DNA of 64,000 bases from Entamoeba invadens IP1 (taxonomy: Eukaryota > Evosea > Mastigamoebida > Endamoebidae): contig NW_004191847.1 in assembly GCF_000330505.1 (NCBI RefSeq), positions 34,834-98,833 on the forward strand, in the 5' to 3' direction. Positions within the stretch are counted from its first letter, which is position 1. The number at the start of each line of letters is the position of its first letter. The translations under genes were made by a program, and so were the position numbers. This document shows positions 3,251 to 60,182 of this stretch, piece by piece. Below the pieces are notes generated by a model. That model saw only the letters and a program-made list of their open reading frames with translations. It was not told the origin of the DNA and made no database searches.

Positions 3251-4458
3251 AAACAGTAACATGTGATTAAAAACAGAAAACTTCAAGGAAAAATATTTTT
3301 TTATTATTTTTTATTTTTCATATTAAAAATGCTTAAATTTAATAATAAACAAAATATTAAATCGATCAAATTAAATAAAAAATAACATTACCAAAACACC
3401 CAACATAGAAGGTGACAGTGAATATCAAGTTTGTATAAACAAAATGGTTATTTATAACACTAAAGTTGTTTTGGTATTTGTTTTGGGACTTGCCTTGGAA
3501 GTAACTATTTTATTTTACTTTGAAAATCGGTGTCGAACAATGTCATTACCAAAAATAATAACACTTTAATAATATATAACTGTTGAAAATCAAAAAGATA
3601 AGAAATGTATTAATTTAATAAACACATCGAGATAAGAAGTATTAAAATTTGTCTTGCTATTAATGTTTTATTTACAAATCGTATATATTTTTGAATGAAT
3701 AACACTCAACTATATTTTTCAAAGCAAAATAATATTACACAAGACAAAAATCATACAACAATCATATCATTTGAATCATTTTTAAAACAAATCATATTTT
3801 TTCGTATTGTTCGTTGTAAATTATTTATTTATTGATTATTATACATTAAAAGTTATTGTTTTCTTTTGGTTGTTTAATCTAAGTTTTAAATTACCTTTGA
3901 TAAAGTTGTGTTGTTTTTGAGACATTCCCAAACATGTACAAAAAACGCAATGTTTTTTAAAAAAAAAATATTTGAAAACAGTTATAATTTATAAAAGATG
4001 ATGACATGTCAACAAATAATACATATTTAAATCTTTTTCAATTATATTGTTGTGTGTTGGCAAGTTAACATATGAAAAAACAAAATAATTATTATTGCAC
4101 ATTTTAAATAAATAACAAAACATTACAAAACATTACTTAAGACCAACAGAAAATAGTCGTACAACAAGAAAATTGTTGTATACTCATGATTTTAGTATCA
4201 AACAAACCAAAAAATCGGGATTATTTTTCACATATAAAATATGACTAAACAATCAGGAATAAAAATTGGGGGTTGAAAAAATAAAAAACCAGAAATTATA
4301 CAAAATAATACTATAAAACAATGTGAACGACTATTTTCTGCTGTACCACAGTTTTCTGGTGCTTTTTATATTCAGTTTTGTTTTAATATATAAAAAACAT
4401 AAAAACACTTTATGAACAATAATATTCTACATAAATGTGTTACATTGAGTAATTAAAA
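3251..4458. other. AT-rich intergenic DNA
   Basis: I see no coding frame, tRNA or repeat boundary. Homopolymer A and T runs and simple AT-rich sequence dominate. Confidence 0.6.
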
Positions 4459-4528
4459 GTATTTGTGGTCTAAAAGCAAATTATCACTTTTCCAAAGTGT
4501 AGAACAAAGTTTTAGTACTGGCAAATGC
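4459..4528 (+). pseudogene. tRNA-Gly(UCC)-like relic
   Basis: The two ends pair as a seven-base acceptor stem (GTATTTG with CAAATGC, one G-T pair). A CACT/AGTG anticodon stem closes a seven-base loop TTTCCAA, which puts TCC at the anticodon. The T arm has lost the GGTTCGANTCC B box and does not form a clean stem. The first fifteen bases nearly match the relic at 7364, so the two probably share an origin. A working Pol III gene is unlikely. Confidence 0.5.
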
Positions 4529-6061
4529 ATACATATTTTTATAAATCCATCAACTTGTTGAAATAAATTTATATAACAAAAATATAAACAAATATATGTT
4601 TAAAGTGTTATGTTTTAATCAACAATTGTTAATTGTTATTTAACATCTCTTTAACAAACATAACTTAGCACTTTGAAGTGTTTAAATTGTATTAAAAAAT
4701 GATGAATTAAAGTTATAATCAAATAGATCATAATTCGACATGTAATAAAAAGATACATCATAACAATCTACATTAAAAATAAACATATTTTTATAATTTT
4801 AACATTATGGTCAAATATGAATATTATTATTATTTACAATATGTTTAATATAAAAACTTTAATAATATAGTACAACATCATATACAACTATTTAGAAACT
4901 AACCGTATTTGTATTAAGATAATACATATAACCAATTGTTTAGAACACGAAAAATTTAAAAATTGTTTTTGTGAGTCAAAACAAATTGTCGAATTAATGA
5001 TTTTATTATTTGACAAATTAATCCATGGTTATTAACAACTTGTATTTTTTAAAATTATACTATTGTTGTTTTATTGTATTAATTGTGCTGTTTAGGACAC
5101 AAAAAAATATGCATTAAAACATTTTAATATTTATATATAATGTTGTAAAATTTTATATAGCAAATAACATTTATAATTTTCAAATTATGGAAAAACATAT
5201 TTCCACAATAAATTAAAATGTTATAAATTTTAAGTTACAACGTTTATTAATTTAGTCATTATAATGCTAATTGTTAATTTATCAAAACGTATTAAAATTA
5301 TGTTTTTTGTTATATAATACAACTATTAATGAAAAATGAATACATTTAAACATTTATTAGTTTAAGAATTAAACATAAAAATTAAAGATTATTTCAAACC
5401 AGAAATTTCCAAAATCTCAATCCTAATTACCCAAGTCACAATTTTATTACCAAAATGTTAATCATCTCGTATAAATTCTTACGTTATAATACCTCATTTT
5501 CGGCAATAATGATAATAAAAATGATTGGTTCAAACATAAATTGTAATGACACATTTTTTGATTTTTTCAATTTTTAAATATTTTACCTAAAGACAGTCTG
5601 AAAACCTTATTTGTTTTATTACTTTATTTATCGATATTCATTGGTTGGTTTTTACAACTCAAAAATTACAAGCAAAAACAATAAATTTGATATTCAACAA
5701 TTTACAGAAAAAACAAAAAACAAGTTTTTTTACAACAAATAAAACGATTCATTAAGTACAAGACCTAAACAAAAAAAGATGTTAATCAATTCAAAAACAT
5801 GTTAACGAACACGCATAAAACAATAAAATATAACAATAAATCAAACTAATAAAACTGATAATATTAGAAAAAATAAAGAAAATAAGATGCGTTGTGAGTA
5901 TCAAAGAAAGAGAAAAATGTAATATCAAAAAGTTAAAGTATTTATAATGATAATAACAGAACTAATAACAACTAGTTAAAAATATTAATTTTATAACTTT
6001 AGTAATAGTAATGTAATAACTAGAAGTATCAATATAAATAGAATTGACATTTTAATAAGAA
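4529..6061. other. AT-rich intergenic DNA between tRNA relics
   Basis: No supported gene. The stretch is extremely AT-rich and lies between two tRNA-like sequences. No short tandem repeat array of the kind that flanks Entamoeba tRNA units is visible. Confidence 0.6.
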
Positions 6062-13579: not shown

Positions 13580-13588
13580 CTTGTTTTC

Positions 13589-14168
13589 GGGATTTACCTT
13601 TTACACCCACACCCCGCTATAAATACACATTTTTTATTTAAAAATAAAACATTTTTTGTATTTTTTGTTTTTGAGTCTTGAAAAAATAGGGTTTTACTTT
13701 TTCTCGTTTACATCTAAAAAAATAAAACAAATAAAAAGTTTTATATAAAACGTCATTTTTTTTGTCGCATGTTTTGGCGCAAAGTAAACGTTTTGATTTA
13801 TTTTTATTTAACTATTAAACACTAAATTATATAATAATAAACCATACTTTTAATAGTTACGAATCTAAAACTCTTAATTACTAAATGAAAAAACACTCAA
13901 CCAAAATCCAAGTACTTTTTACTTTCGATGTCAAAACAAAAGAAGGTAACCCTAATTTGGTTAAAGAAGGGATTGAAACCCCAGACAACATCATCGATTC
14001 AATAGCCAATGCGTTTATTTTTTTACTACTTCAAAACCCAATCAAAAACAATGGCAGAGGCTTCAGCTATCTCTGTTGCTAACCAGACATTTTCTCTCTT
14101 CGTTACTAAAAACAGCGATTCACAAAAACTCAAACAGACATTCCGTTGTGTTTACCAGAAATGTTATT
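13589..14168 (+). repeat. Left 580-bp TIR of the composite MULE
   Basis: Inverted copy of 19244-19823. It contains two minus-to-plus oriented features: a TATA-rich leader and the first part of the transposase coding region, including the ATG at 13885 (MKKHSTKIQVLF frame) and the ATG at 14051 (MAEASAISV frame). The inner end is sharp: beyond 14168 the two copies diverge completely. Confidence 0.9.
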
Positions 14169-16129
14169 GTACTATTTGTTTGAATTTGAATGAAAATAAA
14201 ACAATGGTTAAACATATAGTTATAACAAATAATCACTCCCATAACTTTACGACGGATATTCCATTACACATGAGAATTATTTTTTCACAGGAACAAATAA
14301 ATGAGATGAAAAAACTTGCTATGATACATTATTCCCCTTCACAAATTGTCACTACAATGAATCTTTCAGTCAAATCATCAGTAGTTTGACTTCTTATTTC
14401 ATCTTCATTCAATAAATATTCACCAGATCAAACACAACAACTATTTTTGTACGTTAAAATAAACTAACCAATTTTCAACTCACTTTACCAAAAACATTTC
14501 AGGACAATTTGTTTCTTTTTTTGCTTTCAACGTCAATCAAATTTCAACTGATTATTCAAATAGAATGTTTATAGATGATACAGCTTTAACTGATGTATTC
14601 AATTTGCCTTTAATAGTAGCAGTGTCTTTAGACGAAAAAAATAAAACGGATATTATTTTTTATGGTATATTAAGAGATAGAACAACTGATTCGTTTTTAA
14701 ACTTGTTCAAATTCGTTTCTAAATTTAGAAAATTTAATTTGGTTGTGTGTGATAGGTGTATGTCACAGATTTCAACACTTTCTTCCGTCTTTTCTGGAAT
14801 CAAATACGTTTTTTGTCACAGGCATATTGCAAGAGATTTTATCGTTGCCTTTGGTGAAAAGTCAAATATTGTTCATATGTGGTTTCAAATGATTGATAAA
14901 ACGGTATCAGAAACAGACTTTGTCAAAACGTTAATGACGATGAGTGGATCGGATCTCTGTACTGATCAAAATGAAAGAATTGAAGAAAGGATAACATTAT
15001 ATTAAATGATAGACAAATACTATTTAAAATAATTAATGAATTAAAATTGGTGAATAAAAATGAAAAGAACGAAGACCGTATCGAAAATAAAATTCGATTA
15101 ATTCAAGGTTTACTTAATGTGATGGATTGCTGGAGACCAAGAGTCACTAAGTGTATTTCAAACAGAACAACTTCAAATGAGATAGAAGGATACTTCGGAG
15201 TTTTTAAACTTAAGTTTGGTGGAAAAGAAGTGACTCTTTTTAAACTGGCTTAACTACTTGAAGCAGACAGCATAAGTTTTTGATTTGTAGTTCTATTTTG
15301 ATTACAATGCGGCTCGATTGGTGATAAATGAAAATATATTGTACATTTTACCAAAAGATGTAATACATAAAATCATGACAGAGTATAGGTACGCAATAAA
15401 TGGTATGGAAATGATTGTTGATGGCACCACTTTATCTTCGTGTAACTGCGACCAATTCATAGAAAACAAATACCCTTGCATTCACTTGGTTACACTGTAA
15501 TTTATAAAGTGGTGTTTCCCACTTCCAGTTACTCTCTTCAATGATAAACTCTTTGAGATGACAAAACGTGTTTATTCAACTAAAACAAGCTCATTGATGA
15601 GACAGTTAAGCCATCAAAAAGTCGACGTGATCTACACTTTGCTCTTGAAGCAATAGAAAACGTTTTAAAGGATGACAACACCCTTTTAGTGAGATATTAT
15701 GAATTTGTCAACAATGTTTTGAAAGGAAAAAACGAGAAAACTGAACACATTGAAGAATTTGTTGTCGAAGAAACAGGGAAAAGACTCCGACCCAGTTTAT
15801 TGGTCACTAAATCTACAAGTGGTAGGAAGTCGATTTTTATAAAAAAAAAACGAAGAAAGTAGTAACACTATTGAAAAGAGAAAGTCGCTAGTTAGCACCC
15901 AGAATTTTGTTGACAATTTGACTGAACCATCGCGACAATTTCAAAAAGGACCAAGACCCAGAATAATGGTAGAAACGTTGATGCGTCCAGGAAGAGTAGT
16001 TCCACCAAAACCATATGTTTATGGTCAGGGTTTGAATAAAGTTGAACCAAACGCTTTGGTCAAAAGAGTATACCACTGTAAAAAGTGTGGTCAAGGTGGT
16101 CACAATTCGAGAAACTGTTTTTTGAATTA
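14051..16129 (+). pseudogene. MULE transposase, degenerate
   Basis: Cut-and-paste transposase of the Mutator superfamily, broken into at least five frame segments. The order is complete. First comes an N-terminal zinc-binding region (RCVYQKCYC to NNHSHNF, 14130-14250). The DDE core follows: first Asp in FIDDTALTDVF at 14565, second in VVCDRCMSQ near 14750 followed by FCHRHIARDF, and Glu in TSNEIEGYFGVF near 15180. A SWIM-type zinc motif (CNCDQFIENKYPCIH, near 15440) comes next. The C-terminal CCHC knuckle (CKKCGQGGHNSRNC, near 16080) closes the gene. A TGA at about 14387, stops near 15003 and 15251, and several frame changes inactivate it. The start is uncertain: 14051, or 13885 if the overlapping frame belongs to the same protein. 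The 5' end lies inside the TIR. Confidence 0.85.
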
Positions 16130-16278
16130 GAAATTACTCTTTTATTTAATATTAATAATTTATTAATTAATTAATTGTTTGTTTGTTATAAATAAGAATG
16201 TTGAAAAAATGTCAATGAGCATTGATTAGAGAGTTTGTGAGCTGTATCTACATGGTTTCAATTTGGAGCGTCTTGAAA
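16130..16278. other. Spacer after the transposase
   Basis: AT-rich; leads into the first internal direct repeat. Confidence 0.4.
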
Positions 16279-16377
16279 ACTTCTAAAAACAACTAGCCCA
16301 GTGCGATGATTGATTTTTTTGCAACATATACAACACGTATTTAGAAGACATTTCGCAGTGAAACTTGAAGTGTCACA
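16279..16377 (+). repeat. Internal direct repeat, copy 1
   Basis: Diverged copy of 18297-18394. Shared blocks are ACTAGCCCAGTGCGATGATT (here) versus the GCTAGTCTAGTGCAATGATT form, and CATTTCGCAG followed by a conserved GTCAC. The two copies bracket all captured gene fragments. Confidence 0.6.
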
Positions 16378-16413
16378 ATAAAAGTACAATATTTTGTAAA
16401 ACCCGACACTTAA

Positions 16414-16441
16414 AGAGGCGTATCACTTGTGATATGCCTCT
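16414..16441. other. Hairpin upstream of the malic enzyme fragment
   Basis: AGAGGCGTATCAC, two bases, then GTGATATGCCTCT: a 13-base stem with one G-T pair. It is GC-rich compared with its surroundings and lies 25 bp before the first ATG of the captured fragment. Confidence 0.55.
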
Positions 16442-16465
16442 CTACAAGTATTAGCTAGTTACTCA

Positions 16466-16939
16466 ATGCACGGACTGAGTTTTACAAGACACTTGTTGAG
16501 AAGGCACACAAATTCTTTCGAAGGAAGATCCAGATCATGCCGAAGTGCATTGTGTGGGTTTAATTGGTTCAACGCGTACTACACTCCCGGCGTATCTCGC
16601 ATTTCAACAAACATCCGTGACGACAACGACTCATCACTGTTGTATACGATGTGTGGCAACTTTGTTGGTGTTGTATCGGACTCGACACGAGTGCTTGATG
16701 ATGGAGATGTGACACCTGCTGGTGGGTTTGGTGTGATGGAAGGGAAGGCGTTGCTGATGAAGTACTTAGGTGGTATTGACGCAGTTCCCATCTGCATTGA
16801 CTCGAAGGTTGCTGGGAAGGCTGATGCTGGTGCGATGATAGAGTTTGTGCAGCAAATACATCACACCTTTGGTGCAATCAACCTGGAAGACATATCACAG
16901 CCAAACTGCTACAGAGTGCTTGACATGTTCGAGTTTTGA
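16466..16939 (+). pseudogene. Captured malic enzyme fragment (N-terminal malic domain)
   Basis: Malic enzyme decarboxylates malate to pyruvate in the cytosol. This 157-codon frame has the malic-domain signatures in order: YYTPGV at residue 38, VVSDSTRVLDDGDVTPAGG at 69, GVMEGKALLMKYLGGIDAV at 89 and INLEDISQPNCY at 138. They match the prokaryote-like malic enzymes. Before YTPGV the correct reading lies in another frame (VEKAHKFFRRKIQIMPKC, about 16480-16550), so one frameshift is present. About 155 of some 480 residues remain; the NAD(P)-binding half is absent. The segment is far richer in GC than anything around it, like a well-expressed host gene. It ends abruptly at about 16925, where an opposite-strand fragment begins. 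It cannot encode an active enzyme. Confidence 0.85.
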
Positions 16940-17827
16940 AAACCCACAGTCGTAATACACAATTGTCCCTGTTCTGTGAATGTTACAGAACCTTTCCACA
17001 CAAGTTCTGATACAGCGTCTATGTTCATAGGTTCACCATTTGTGAATGCCTTTCTGATAATCGGAGTGATGCACTGATCCTTTGCCGATTGTACAAATGT
17101 GGTGTTCACTTCAAACCTGTTTACGTTCAAAACAACCTGGTTGTCTGATGCATCAAATACAATTTCACCACCCATGTATTGTAAGAGTGAAGTATCGAAC
17201 GATTCAAATGCATAAATGTTTGAATTTTTACAAGTAAAAGTGATCCAAAAATTGCATATTGTTCCACTCTTAAGATGCCCTTCTCAACCATTTCAATATA
17301 CATTTGTGTTGCTTCAAATGTACTCAAAGAGACGTCTCCCGTTATTTTGACAAAGGAAATCAGATTATCAATATTGAGGTCTTCCTCCAAAATGATGTTC
17401 TTTCCAAGTAAATTAATTTAATTTGTATCAACATAAGTATTGATTACAATTTTACACTTTTTACTATCTGCATCATCACTAATACACATCACTTTAACTC
17501 CACTCATGTGTATGTCCAACGTATAAATGCCACCTTTCATTATTTGAATTGTCACACCGTCCAGTTTCACATTAACAATATCATATTCCTTTGTTATCTC
17601 TGCATTGTTTTCATATATGACCACACTATACACGGCGGTTGAAATTTCAATGTTATATCTCTGTTTATACTCTGTACTGGTGTCTTTTCTATGGCAATTT
17701 TCCGTGTCAGTAACTGTGCAAAGTACATCATTGGGCATTGAAAAACAGATTTCGATGTTGATTTGTTAATCAATGTTTTGGAATTACATACAAGTAAAGT
17801 ATCTGTAGGAAGAGATGCACCACTCAT
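16909..17827 (-). pseudogene. Captured fragment of a beta-rich surface-type protein
   Basis: Minus-strand readings in at least three frames follow one another from 17827 down to 16909. They are MSGASLPTDTLLVCNSKTL, then EISTAVYSVVIYENNAEITK to MSGVKVMCISDDADSKK, then LNIDNLISFVKITGDVSLS, then GGEIVFDASDNQVVLNVNRF to SVTFTEQGQLCITTV. The short alternating beta strands with many Asn, Ser, Thr and Val resemble the N-terminal ectodomain of the TMK gene at 45.5-49.4 kb. I infer a captured piece of a TMK or related surface protein, with frameshifts. It abuts the malic enzyme fragment tail to tail. It has no signal peptide, TM segment or kinase. Confidence 0.5.
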
Positions 17828-18263
17828 TGGCAGTAATGTGTGGAATGTGTAGAATGTGTGTAGTTGTGGTTTTTGATGAAAATTTGATATTAAGACATTC
17901 TAAGTTGAATTTATTCACATTGATGATAGAATTTGTTGATTACAAAGTTTCAAAAGTCAAATCAGTGACAATGATAAAAAGGGGGTTTCCAATCAGTGCT
18001 TTATCATTTCCAAATACTTTGAAAACACTCAGTTGTGATTTTATTGGTGTCAATTCCGAGTAAGTCAATGTAACACCTTGTTTGATAGTGACTTCTGGAA
18101 AACTTTTTCAGTCAAATTGTTTGATGAGTGTATGGGCGTTCCGTGTATTTTGACATTTTTCGTTTTGATAAAATTTAACATTAGAATTGAGTATAGACTT
18201 TCAAACGTAATAAATAAGTATGTCGGAATTTGTCTCAGAATGTTAAAGATTAGGTATATGTAA
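17815..18263 (+). pseudogene. Captured fragment, possibly from an LRR-type gene
   Basis: Plus-strand reading with ATG at 17815 (82 codons, core FPISALSFPNTLKTLSCDFI), followed in another frame by FDSDFWKTFSVKLFDECMG (about 18078-18263). The LSFPNTLKTLSC stretch resembles Entamoeba LRR units. It overlaps the start of the opposite-strand fragment by 13 bases, which suggests a fusion junction. The assignment is weak. Confidence 0.35.
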
Positions 18264-18296
18264 GGTATCAACTTGATTTCAATTTGTGTGTTTTAA

Positions 18297-18394
18297 ACAC
18301 TACTAAGAACAGCTAGTCTAGTGCAATGATTGATTTTTGCATCAAATACGACACATATTTAAATATCATTTCGCAGATAACCCGGAAATGTCAC
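18297..18394 (+). repeat. Internal direct repeat, copy 2
   Basis: Partner of 16279-16377, same orientation, roughly three quarters identical by eye. It closes the right side of the captured-gene block. Confidence 0.6.
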
Positions 18395-18560
18395 TTCAAA
18401 AATTTAACATATTGTTGAACTCGACGTTGAAAATATAATATCATAAATGATGTGCCTTTTAACAATTGAGTGACTTGTCTTTGTTGTAGAAGCCATCACC
18501 GAAACATTTTACAACAACGACATTTGTGCACTTTGAGCACTCTAAGTCATCAACATATAG

Positions 18561-18770
18561 AAAAGGGGGTCAGACGAGCAGTATTTACAAAAATATATTT
18601 ACATGAGTTATGTGTTTACCAACAAATACTACCACAATAACATATTTTATGTATCCCAAACCGAACGAACACTCAAAGAAGACACTATAAATGTTGCCAC
18701 CAACACAGTTTGCATTTTCATATTCAACATACACGATAAAGTATTGAACTTCACAACAATTAATTACTAA
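18561..18770 (+). pseudogene. Short open frame inside the MULE, unrecognised
   Basis: Open from 18561; the first ATG at 18603 gives 55 residues containing FTNKYYHNNIFYVSQTERTL and INVATNTVCIFIF. It reads like a fragment of a real protein rather than noise, but I recognise no domain. It may be one more captured piece. Confidence 0.35.
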
Positions 18771-19243
18771 ATATATTATGTTGTGTTTTAATGGTTGTAT
18801 ATTGTTAGAAATACAACGATATATTATTCGAAGACAACAATGTATAGTTCATGGCAGCTTGTTGAGTCGTGATCATACAAAATATTTACTATTCAATTTA
18901 AGAGTAAACCAACTTTTCATTTTTGAACATTACTATATACATTAAAGCATTTCGTGTATTTTGTTTAATGACATTATAACTTGTTATAAAAAATTGTTAA
19001 TTCAAAAAAATATAACCAATATACTACATTTTCTTCAATGAAATGTTAAAAAGTATGACGTACTAAGTATTATTTTTGAAAAGTTATTGAAATATTATAA
19101 ATGTATTATAACTTTATTAACAATAAATACAATACATCTATGTTGTCTATTAAAAACAAATAACATTTTAATGTAATATTAATAACTATAAACATAAAAA
19201 CAAACTTCTTAACACCATCTAAGACAACTTTTATCATATATGA

Positions 19244-19823
19244 AATAACATTTCTGGTAAACACAACGGAATGTCTGTTTGAGTTTTTGTGAATCGCTGT
19301 TTTTAGTAACGAAGAGAGAAAATGTCTGGTTAGCAACAGAGATAGCTGAAGCCTCTGCCATTGTTTTTGATTGGGTTTTGAAGTAGTAAAAAAATAAACG
19401 CATTGGCTATTGAATCGATGATGTTGTCTGGGGTTTCAATCCCTTCTTTAACCAAATTAGGGTTACCTTCTTTTGTTTTGACATCGAAAGTAAAAAGTAC
19501 TTGGATTTTGGTTGAGTGTTTTTTCATTTAGTAATTAAGAGTTTTAGATTCGTAACTATTAAAAGTATGGTTTATTATTATATAATTTAGTGTTTAATAG
19601 TTAAATAAAAATAAATCAAAACGTTTACTTTGCGCCAAAACATGCGACAAAAAAAATGACGTTTTATATAAAACTTTTTATTTGTTTTATTTTTTTAGAT
19701 GTAAACGAGAAAAAGTAAAACCCTATTTTTTCAAGACTCAAAAACAAAAAATACAAAAAATGTTTTATTTTTAAATAAAAAATGTGTATTTATAGCAGGG
19801 TGTAAGTGTAAAAGGTAAATCCC
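19244..19823 (-). repeat. Right 580-bp TIR with a second copy of the transposase 5' end
   Basis: Reverse complement of 13589-14168 with only a few base differences near the tip (ACACTTACACCCTG against ACACCCACACCCCG). It carries the same 65-codon frame (19330-19527) and the same MAEASAISV start. These copies stop being transposase at the inner TIR edge, so they are truncated duplicates created by the TIR. Confidence 0.9.
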
Positions 19824-19832
19824 CTTGTTTTC

Positions 19833-36704: not shown

Positions 36705-37010
36705 ATTGGGTGGGGGATATAAAGATTGGGATAAAAATGTTTAGGATAAAATGTTCGGTTAAAAATAATTTCTTCAATGAAACATGCATTTAATTTACAT
36801 AAAAAAATCAAACATGTTTATAATTGTTATTTAAATATAACTTGTCAAAAGAAAAATATTGTCAAAATTGAACAAATCTATATATATTAATAAACATTAG
36901 TTGTAAACAAAAAGTAAATGGTGCCATTATAATTATAAACATGAAATTAAAAACACGTCAAATATATAGCGAATAATATTTATTTTATTTTTATATAAAT
37001 AATTTATTCG
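36705..37010 (+). repeat. Left TIR of the second MULE
   Basis: From AATGTTTAGGATAAAATGTT inward it matches the right TIR almost base for base. The outermost 40 bases differ, with an extra GGGG and GATTGGG here. Confidence 0.8.
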
Positions 37011-37190
37011 TTTATTTTTCAATGATATTTTTTAATATCAACAATAATAGCCAATAACACCAAAGAGACAATTATTTATTTTAATTTATATGATTGTTCA
37101 ATATTAATAAATTGATCTTAGAAGAGACAAGTTAATTATAATTGTGTTGTTTTGTAACAATAAAAGGAAATCAAATAAAGTAATTATCAA

Positions 37191-38936
37191 ATGGAAGATT
37201 ATCACCCCGAACTCCACCAAGTTAAAAGTCAGAAACCTACGAAAAATGGGATTTACAAAATGTTACCAGTTGTAGACAATTTTGTGTTTTATCCACAAAA
37301 TGATTCTTTAACGGTGTTCAAATGTCGGGAGTGTGATGTAAAAATAATTGTTACACAAATGAATGGTAACGGAGATGATATCAAATACATTGATTACAAA
37401 TTCAAAGATTCTGAGCACACCAGACACTCTCATCTTCCTTCTATTAAAAATGAAGGTCATGGTGCAATTCGTGATATTATTAGTAATGGAACCAACATTT
37501 TAATGTCTGCAACAAAACTGATGGACCAATATAATAACGACCATCCCAATGACAAGCGAAGACAGACTTCAATTAGAAGAACTTTTAATCTAATAAAAGC
37601 AGAAATGATCGAAGATAAAATGAAAGAGTTACTGGAAAGTGGAAAATACACGACAAAAGAAGATGATAATGTGTTTATTCTTATATCAAACGAAAAAGTA
37701 ACTCAACTTAAAGAACGAAAAGTGATTTATTTGTGTATGGATGGTACATTTAATTCAGCACCAAATACATATCAACAACTTTACACAATCCACGCAATTT
37801 TATCTAATGGACAGTCTTTTACTCTTGTTCACGCTTTAATGACAAAGAAACGGGAAAGTGATTATGATACACTTTTTAATTATATCAATTTGCATTTTAA
37901 AGAAAAGTGGGACAGTGAATTATTTAATGAAAAAACAAGTATTATGCTTGATTTTGAAATTGCAGTTATAAATTCAATTTTCAAATTTCACTGTAATGTG
38001 CATGGATGTTATTTCCACTTTACACAATGTATCTGGAGAGCAGTACAACGGTTATCACTGACTAAACTATATTTCCCTTCTTCAAACGTTTGGACAATTG
38101 TGAACGACTTAAAACTTCTGGCTTTCGTGAAACCATCTGAAGTCAATGAACAATTTGAAAAAATCGTCGAAAGAATTCCATCTTATAATCTTGACAAAAA
38201 TACCAGCAACTCAATCAATGATTTAATTATTTATTTCAGGGATAATTGGTTGTTCAAATGGCCGATTAATCTGTGGTCACAATTCAACCAACAATTGAGA
38301 ACAGACAACTTGAGTGAGTCGTACCATTCAGCTTTGGTTAAAAGGCTTAATTGTAAAAAGCCAACACTCAAGACACTATTGATTCATTTAATGAAAAGAG
38401 AAGAAGCAGAACTTAAAAAAATAGAACAGATGGACAGAGGGTTAAACCATTTTGTAAACAGACCAACCCGTATATTTAATTTGACTTTGAATTATTATAG
38501 CGGAAGCAGCAAATACGACAAGTTTAAAGAAAATTTATTAAATGAAATTGAAAAATATAAATGGAACAAATTATATGAAAATGCAATTGAAAACACGGGA
38601 AATGAAATTCTGAGAATTGATAACATTAAAACAGTTCAAATTAATAAAAATGAAATTGGTCAACTAAGAGACGCATCAAATTGTGACTATAAAGAAATCG
38701 AATTTGGTGAATTTGTTGATAATATTGATGATGAACACGTAGAGCAAAATGTTATTACCAAAAGAAAAGAAGATGTCGAACAGGTTTTCATGAAAAGAGT
38801 AATAAATACGCAAGAGTTAATAAACGACATAAATATCTCTACTCAAACAAAAAAGAAAAAATTGCCACCTTCTCAAAGAAGTTATGTTGGAGATGGGAAA
38901 AAAAGGAGAAAAAAACGCACACAAATCAAACAATAA
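37191..38936 (+). CDS. MULE transposase, intact (581 aa)
   Basis: Cut-and-paste DNA transposase acting in the nucleus on the flanking TIRs. An N-terminal FLYWCH-like zinc region has Cys45, Cys48, His76 and His79/81 (FKCRECDVKI, HTRHSHLP). The MULE catalytic domain has Asp184 in YLCMDGTFNSAP, Asp254 in IMLDFEIAVINS, the CxxH of HGCYFHFTQC at 283-286, and Glu376 in RTDNLSESYHSAL. The C-terminus is Lys-rich (KKKKLPPSQRS to KKRRKKRTQ), likely a nuclear signal. There is no SWIM or CCHC zinc motif, unlike the transposase in the composite MULE, so the two belong to different lineages. ATG at 37191 lies 180 bp inside the left TIR; no frame disruption. Confidence 0.9.
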   Translation: MEDYHPELHQVKSQKPTKNGIYKMLPVVDNFVFYPQNDSLTVFKCRECDVKIIVTQMNGNGDDIKYIDYKFKDSEHTRHSHLPSIKNEGHGAIRDIISNGTNILMSATKLMDQYNNDHPNDKRRQTSIRRTFNLIKAEMIEDKMKELLESGKYTTKEDDNVFILISNEKVTQLKERKVIYLCMDGTFNSAPNTYQQLYTIHAILSNGQSFTLVHALMTKKRESDYDTLFNYINLHFKEKWDSELFNEKTSIMLDFEIAVINSIFKFHCNVHGCYFHFTQCIWRAVQRLSLTKLYFPSSNVWTIVNDLKLLAFVKPSEVNEQFEKIVERIPSYNLDKNTSNSINDLIIYFRDNWLFKWPINLWSQFNQQLRTDNLSESYHSALVKRLNCKKPTLKTLLIHLMKREEAELKKIEQMDRGLNHFVNRPTRIFNLTLNYYSGSSKYDKFKENLLNEIEKYKWNKLYENAIENTGNEILRIDNIKTVQINKNEIGQLRDASNCDYKEIEFGEFVDNIDDEHVEQNVITKRKEDVEQVFMKRVINTQELINDINISTQTKKKKLPPSQRSYVGDGKKRRKKRTQIKQ

Positions 38937-39193
38937 GGACGCCGATAAAACAAAATTGTTTTGTTTCATTTTTTTTGTTAATAATTTTAAATATATATAA
39001 AAATAACAAAATCGATTATTATGTTAATAATTACATCAATAATACTTTATTAATATATTTTTTATAAAAGTGGTATTTTATTAATATTTTAGAAGTTATT
39101 TAACAGTGATATTTTTACTGTAATAACAATTATTTACAGTAGACTTGATTAATTCAAATTTAATTTGAATATATTTTGATCACCAAAAATAGT

Positions 39194-39493
39194 CGAATAA
39201 ATTATTTATATAAAAATAAAATAAATATTATTCGCTATATATTTGACGTGTTTTTAATTTCATGTTTATAATTATAATGGCACCATTTACTTTTTGTTTA
39301 CAACTAATGTTTATTAATATATATAGATTTGTTCAATTTTGACAATATTTTTCTTTTGACAAGTTATATTTAAATAACAATTATAAACATGTTTGATTTT
39401 TTATGTAAATTAAATGCATGTTTCATTGAAGAAATTATTTTTAACCGAACATTTTATCCTAAACATTTTTTCCAAAACATAATATCACCCAAT
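39194..39493 (-). repeat. Right TIR of the second MULE
   Basis: Inverted copy of 36705-37010; begins 258 bp after the transposase stop. Confidence 0.8.
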
Positions 39494-59207: not shown

Positions 59208-60182
59208 ATGAGTGCTAACAGACAAACAATGTTGTTCAAAGCCCTGAGTGCTTTGACTGGCTTAAAAATTGTTGGGTTGTGTAGTCAACACCCCGAAGCG
59301 CAGAAAATCGACCTGGAAATGTTTACGAATTTGTTTGTGAATAACAACATTGAAGAAGCCGTAGAAGTGTTCGTGGAAAATAACAACAGAGAAAGAATTG
59401 TTCCTGAAATTCATCCAAACGAACCAACTTTTAAAATTTATATTAACAATTCGTTGGCTTCAAATAAAATATTTTCGATAGACATCTCGTCGAATTGGTC
59501 CACTGAAAAAGTCCAACAAGTTATTTTTGATAAAACTGGCATACCATCTGATCTTTATTATCTTGTTTTTAGAGGAAGAATTTTGGATGAAGGAATAAAC
59601 ATTTCAGAGTATTATGTCACTGAAGAATGTACCTTGTTCATGGTTGGAAAACTTCGCGGAGGTTTAAAAGAATTTGCATTTGATGACAATTTGTTGTCAC
59701 CAAGTTATGACTATGATTTCACAGGTATTGATGATGTAAAAGATGGTAGAACATATACAAGAGGCGGGAAGAATTATTCAAGACCATGTGGGTACATGAG
59801 ATATGCACTCAATGTATTGGGAAAGTATGATGATGGAGATGACACTTGGTTGGGGATGTCAAATTCCAAAGGTGAGTGGGCAGTCTCTTATCATGGCACC
59901 GACCCCAAATTTGCAGATTCAATCTGTAAAAATGGGTTTAAAGTTGGAGATAATAATGCTTATGGTGATGGAGTTTATTGTAGTCCCTGTTTTGAAACTG
60001 CAGCAAGTTATTCAAAAGATAAAATTGACGACGAGGGCAACAAATTTAAAATTGTGTTCCAAAACAGAGTCAAAACCGATGAAATTAATTATGCTGATAA
60101 AAAGCGAGGACCTTCAGATTATTGGTACATGGATCCCAAAAATATCAGACCGTACGGAATATGCATTATCAAGTTGAATTGA
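59208..60182 (+). CDS. Ubiquitin-like / ADP-ribosyltransferase-like fusion protein
   Basis: A 324-residue protein. Residues 1-73 are unassigned. Residues 75-152 are a ubiquitin-like domain: FKIYINN at strand 1, KVQQVIFDKTGIPSDLYYLV (ubiquitin KAKIQDKEGIPPDQQRLI), FRGRILDEG, ISEYYV, ending KLRGG like the mature ubiquitin tail. Residues 190-324 look like a PARP-type ADP-ribosyltransferase core: WAVSYHGT with His219, NGFKVGD, YGDGVYCSP with Tyr247, ETAASYS, KIVFQNRV, and the C-terminal NIRPYGICI. His and Tyr fit an H-Y-type NAD-binding site; the third catalytic residue is unclear. The LRGG before the transferase could be a cleavage site or a cis-acting ubiquitin substrate. Function is inferred; no close relative is known to me in Entamoeba. 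Intact, no signal peptide, cytosolic. Confidence 0.75.
   Translation: MSANRQTMLFKALSALTGLKIVGLCSQHPEAQKIDLEMFTNLFVNNNIEEAVEVFVENNNRERIVPEIHPNEPTFKIYINNSLASNKIFSIDISSNWSTEKVQQVIFDKTGIPSDLYYLVFRGRILDEGINISEYYVTEECTLFMVGKLRGGLKEFAFDDNLLSPSYDYDFTGIDDVKDGRTYTRGGKNYSRPCGYMRYALNVLGKYDDGDDTWLGMSNSKGEWAVSYHGTDPKFADSICKNGFKVGDNNAYGDGVYCSPCFETAASYSKDKIDDEGNKFKIVFQNRVKTDEINYADKKRGPSDYWYMDPKNIRPYGICIIKLN

Follow-up and report, generated by a model that had tools for sequence, protein, structure and literature searches.

The DNA examined here (the window) is a 64,000-nucleotide stretch of the genome of Entamoeba invadens, an amoeba of reptiles, and corresponds to C180:34834-98833. It contains at 13589-19823 a 6,235 bp element with pieces of two host genes between its ends. 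It is very probable that this element is a transduplicating Mutator-like element (MULE) that took up host DNA stepwise between its ends and spread by transposition. Genome-wide searches were performed against the 35-Mb E. invadens assembly, whose contigs are given as C-numbers.

The element is bounded by 580 bp terminal inverted repeats (TIRs), located by inverted-repeat comparison at 13589-14168 on the plus strand and 19244-19823 on the minus strand. The two TIRs are 99% complementary, with 3 mismatches in 580 positions and no gaps. They are flanked by the exact 9 bp target-site duplication (TSD) CTTGTTTTC at 13580-13588 and 19824-19832. Identical 9-mers were obtained by chance in 7 of 200,000 random pairs drawn from the window. 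A TSD length of about 9 bp is a MULE criterion, and long TIRs with TSDs of about this length were present in all four complete copies of the element. A broken MULE transposase occupies 14009-16130 on the plus strand. Its open reading frame (ORF) at 14565-15005 contains the MULE domain PF10551 (43.2 bits against a Pfam cut-off of 27.6, E = 5.7e-11), a SWIM domain was detected in 15318-15500 (Pfam, E = 1.7e-4), and a CCHC-like knuckle close to the transposase end fell under the cut-off (E = 0.052). The transposase is broken into at least two ORFs in 4/4 complete copies, and its GC content is 0.316 compared with 0.270 for the whole window. The inner portion of the left TIR extends into a region matching the transposase gene of a related family (C57/C65). 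An initial annotation, made from the sequence alone, had proposed a MULE in an Entamoeba genome with 580 bp TIRs, exact 9 bp duplications, and a Mutator transposase relic; each of these was confirmed.

We searched the assembly for other copies of the element. The TIR search yielded 14 matches, comprising both ends of four complete copies (window, C215, C11:4326-10364, and C152), four single ends (C11:209004, C109, C71, and C84), and two short inner matches. Inner parts of the element without a TIR match were found at C218, where the match runs to the contig end, and at C114, which has a transposase piece only. The complete copies diverge from one another by 1.6-6.3%, but an alignment of the two TIRs within each copy shows 1-4 differences over about 600 bases and 0-4 gap columns. 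The insertions are therefore either young or have TIRs kept alike by conversion. Exact 9 bp TSDs flank the copies in the window and at C11 (GTTAAATTT), and an exact 10 bp TSD flanks that at C215 (GATGTTTTTA), whereas the repeats at C152 are alike at 8 of 9 positions. No shared match was detected between the 500 bp flanks of the four complete copies. The initial annotation also held that the element now moves its cargo around. The cargo does lie at different places, with its own TSDs, in the four complete copies; present movement is left to inference, and the transposase is split.

The flanks of the window copy were joined with one TSD and used as a query. This query matched across the insertion point at C206 (94%, 217 bases for 217), C147 (82%, 213 for 217), and C22 (82%, 142 for 142), these apparent empty sites being defined by match coordinates rather than by their letters. 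Against the window itself, the query gave two separate halves, as expected. Because the joined flanks match these three sites, the window element sits in a repeat, and at least three further copies of this repeat appear to be without the element.

The first piece of cargo, at 16468-16933 on the plus strand, is a 5' piece of a malic enzyme gene. The malic N-terminal domain PF00390 was detected in 16466-16939 (Pfam, E = 2e-16), and the piece is 92% identical to a donor gene at C136. The donor has an intact frame of 485 aa from ATG, with one stop, at its end, and its protein is 100% identical to an E. invadens IP1 protein; C11 holds a paralogue with 74% identity to this donor. Malic matches were taken at E 1e-5 or better, with a second, wider run at E 1e-2, from which scattered AT-rich matches of about 60-70% were set aside. 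The high GC content initially annotated for the malic piece was confirmed, with a value of 0.476 against those of the transposase part and the window. As a sign of foreign DNA, however, this excess was rejected, because the donor stretch is equally GC-rich (0.495). A search of E. coli with the malic piece gave no match.

The other copies suggest how the malic piece reached its present form. The malic cargo of C218 spans donor positions 3451-5174; it starts at codon 27, continues beyond the stop, and thus comprises nearly the whole gene. That of C71 spans positions 3451-5204 but lacks about 3602-3683 and 4650-4892, and one of these two gaps removes the frame end. The junction between the malic sequence and the stretch to its left (R, described below) is identical in the window, C152, C71, and C218, and the malic sequence of the C215 and C11 copies starts at the same donor base. 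The latter two have lost another 225 bases (window 16689-16913), which lie between two GAGTGCTTGA repeats. An N-terminal piece is present, as initially annotated, but it was not captured in that form, as is seen from C218, where almost the entire gene follows this left junction. The malic cargo of the window is the leftover of a longer capture. The intact donor anticipated by the initial annotation was found, but at 92% rather than near-identity. Because of this value, the capture is not recent, despite a difference of only 3 of 580 positions between the two TIRs in the window.

The second piece of cargo, at 16928-18211 on the minus strand, is antisense to the transposase. It is 88% identical to C11:229481-230767 and corresponds to residues 1141-1569, the middle of an intact 2,258-aa ORF (gene 2), in which a Pfam scan found no family. 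A genome search with 16928-18211 matched only the four complete copies and the C11 donor; there was no gene-2 match in C71 or C218. Nor did the genome searches report a cargo match in the related C57/C65 family. Accordingly, the cargo is not a constant part of every copy, contrary to the refuting condition named in the initial annotation. Pieces of two host genes therefore lie between the TIRs while intact donors are located elsewhere, at C136 and C11, in agreement with the earlier proposals that the fragments came from the host and that at least one gene besides malic enzyme was involved.

Other relatives of gene 2 were observed. Parts of the donor that are not adjacent in it lie close together at C125:15710-16923, C186:367981-369075, C19:38485-39666, and C204:27162-28107; these clusters may be short paralogues or another captured, internally deleted copy. 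One donor piece recurs at C103, and the C-terminal part has long matches (69-85%) at C180:142960, C66, C144, and C55, which may likewise be paralogues or other captures.

The remaining sequence between the TIRs contains older material. R, an old degenerate malic-related stretch, lies at 16191-16450 on the plus strand, and a diverged second copy (R'), recognized by its likeness to R, lies at 18207-18468 on the same strand. It is followed by a remnant of the 3' flank of the malic donor (18469-18719, plus strand; 62% to donor locus L057, 4935-5199) and by an AT-rich tail with a GC content of 0.21 (18720-19243), which matched only element copies in the genome search. Within R, 16219-16336 matches L057 3732-3848 at 61%, and R overall is 61-66% identical to malic sequence. 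R and R' are 38-46% different from the donor, whereas the main malic piece of the complete copies is 6-8% different. The best local score against the malic donor exceeded the maximum of 300 shuffles in 6/6 R and R' stretches. For R, the scores were 37 against 16 (C218), 27 against 16 (C152), 23 against 16 (C71), and 23 against 17 (window); for R', they were 28 against 17 (C152) and only 17 against 16 (window). Against the paralogue (mal2), 0/6 stretches exceeded the shuffle maximum. Native MULE sequence was rejected as an identity for R, since its malic-donor score beats all shuffles. These results show that R and R' are older malic-derived stretches and that the cargo lies in more than one layer. 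R' differs from R by 27-35%, compared with a maximum of 16% between the R sequences of different element lines, which suggests that the right part (R' and tail) was derived from a more diverged element copy by recombination. Gene 2 and R' occupy the place of the malic middle in each of the four complete copies, and the 3'-flank remnant follows.

To determine the direction of transfer, malic changes were polarised with the paralogue as outgroup and counted by codon position (1/2/3). Changes on the element side were 31/34/31 in C218 (1343 sites) and 33/35/27 in C71 (1106 sites). In contrast, those on the donor side were 0/2/29 (against C218) and 3/3/30 (against C71); ambiguous changes were 4/1/21 and 2/1/21, respectively. 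The window piece (466 sites; element 3/7/5, donor 3/0/7, ambiguous 1/0/7) is, because of its shortness, of little weight by itself. Coding constraint acts on the donor and not on the malic copies of C218 and C71. Because the element changes are spread evenly over codon positions and those of the donor fall at third positions, the cargo moved from host to element and then lost coding constraint. The malic sequence has four in-frame stops in C218, three in C71, and none in the other four pieces, and frameshifting indels number three in the window, two in C152, three in C218, six in C71, and none in C215 and C11. The four gene-2 copies have 5, 6, 7, and 7 frameshifting indels and 3, 2, 3, and 2 stops, respectively.

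We propose that the history of the element began with a MULE that had long TIRs and a transposase. Its first uptake would have been an old fragment of the malic enzyme gene (R), followed by a malic stretch that starts at codon 27 and extends beyond the stop into 3'-flanking sequence. One branch would then have gained 1.28 kb from the interior of gene 2, placed in antisense, and lost the malic middle, and the product would have spread by transposition with 9-10-bp target duplications. Following a capture model known from plants, uptake may have resulted from template switching in the course of gap repair, either while the element transposed or afterwards, and R' with the tail may have been acquired by recombination with a more diverged element copy. 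A host fragment already held may also have guided later copying from the same donor, so that this donor was sampled repeatedly. Such homology-seeded recapture is a tentative idea and would fit an element with layers of different age, R and R' being 38-46% and the main malic piece 6-8% from the donor; the same malic donor gene is also represented in another repeat (C123/C51).

Several observations weigh against stepwise capture followed by decay. The identity to the malic donor is short of near 100%, and the malic pieces of C215 and C11 (231 bases each) are without frameshift or stop. Changes between gene 2 and its donor, for which there was no outgroup, lean to third positions (43/29/82 in the window); this lean is ascribed, as an assumption, to silent change in the donor itself. 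The overlaps at the junctions are short, at about 6 and 2-5 nt judged from alignment ends, and may reflect chance, and the C57/C65 relatives were read in part only (3.4 kb each). The malic tree, in which the rows of C215 and C11 are short (230 bases), is weak; in it the donor groups with C71 and the window group (54) and C218 lies outside, so that the captured copies do not form one group. In addition, two derived changes are common to C11, C215, and C218 and are not found in the other copies.

The last two observations would be accommodated if malic sequence had been captured separately in the line of C218 (perhaps with C71) and in that of the window group, as would the differences of the 5' part from the donor (6-8% in the window group, 9% in C218, and 13% in C71). 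Nevertheless, the copies agree in their left junction and in the R sequence next to it, three derived changes are common to the five other copies and not C218, and 38 are common to C218 and C71 where only these two have sequence. Separate captures are thus unlikely, and a single malic capture is preferred because of the shared left R/malic junction.

It is considerably less probable that the cargo was a ready-made pseudogene cluster, formed by segmental duplication, that MULE ends came to surround and that now moves as a composite. Gene-fragment mosaics do exist outside this family, as in the 1.2-kb stretch of C123 and C51 (98%), in which no long TIR was found in the 1.2 kb read. However, C71 and C218 represent the state prior to the addition of gene 2, with malic sequence already inside the element, which means that the cluster was assembled there; moreover, the cargo lies within the TIRs in 4/4 complete copies, whose 500 bp flanks share no match. 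Finally, that the element retains the malic and second frames as functional genes can practically be dismissed: a 157-aa ORF with the PF00390 match survives in the window and the C215 and C11 malic pieces have neither frameshift nor stop, but this reading was rejected on the frameshifts, the stops, and the even codon-position spread in C218 and C71.

The C123/C51 stretch (C123:37001-38200, L063; C51:28351-29550, L064) contains a ribosome-interacting-GTPase-like piece (E = 1.6e-10; 89% to C58), a malic C-terminal piece, and a short repeat present at many genome places; the C-terminal part of the malic donor matches both contigs at 72%. Inverted repeats in the 1.2 kb of each had arms of 18 nt only.

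A search for the terminus pattern with up to 3 mismatches gave 21 matches, whereas the backward control gave 0. At C57 and C65, paired termini lie about 5.5 kb apart, and their transposase region is about 61% like that of the window element. No malic or gene-2 match was found at these loci in the genome searches or in the 3.4 kb read of each, with the right ends outside the part read. A genome search for PF10551 gave 105 matches, some under the cut-off. The window itself contains a second, compact MULE at 36733-39470, in which a 581-aa ORF with PF10551 is enclosed by inverted arms that are 218 nt (99%) and 74 nt (100%) long; unlike the 6,235 bp element, it has no space for cargo. An ORF at 59208-60182 has a ubiquitin domain and a PARP-like stretch (26.3 bits against a Pfam cut-off of 26.7).

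Pack-MULEs of rice and other plants are described as MULEs that contain host gene pieces and have lost their own transposase gene (PMC6446971, PMC13317346). Like them, the E. invadens element carries within its MULE ends a decayed cargo from more than one host gene, with donors elsewhere; unlike them, it keeps a transposase remnant in 4/4 complete copies, and its host is an amoeba. The Pack-MULE-like character initially annotated thus holds for the host fragments and their donors, but because the transposase remnant remains, the strict term fails, and "transduplicating MULE" fits. EMULE-Ei1 of E. invadens is described as a 2,882 bp element with 187-bp TIRs, a 9-bp TSD, and one 456-aa ORF (PMC2725143). 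By description, the window element resembles it as a MULE of the same species with a 9-bp TSD and differs in its length, its 580-bp TIRs, and its host cargo; in a protein search with the C57 transposase, 0 of 6,002 candidates passed. A hAT element of Pyrenophora tritici-repentis is reported to carry a transposase and a histone H3-like gene whose ORF is represented by expressed sequence tags (PMC3538342). Both are non-plant DNA transposons with a transposase and host-like genes; ours, however, is a MULE in an amoeba with broken pieces of two genes, compared with a hAT in a fungus with an expressed cargo ORF.

A repeat survey of three Entamoeba species describes EMULE and phantom in E. invadens, and words in "captur-" and the phrase "gene fragment" are absent from its main text (PMC2657916). 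By title or abstract, no report of gene-capturing MULEs in Entamoeba was found in a literature without most subscription papers, and the articles consulted describe MULE gene capture from plants. The process is the ordinary one of plant MULEs; here it occurs in an amoeba whose own genome also holds the donors and an intermediate stage. Small RNAs of 27 nt are reported from E. invadens, and a portion of them maps to its transposons (PMC4527709). Speculatively, the antisense gene-2 cargo might act on its donor via such small RNAs. A clear amoeba case would suggest that gene capture belongs to MULE biology generally and not to plant genomes.

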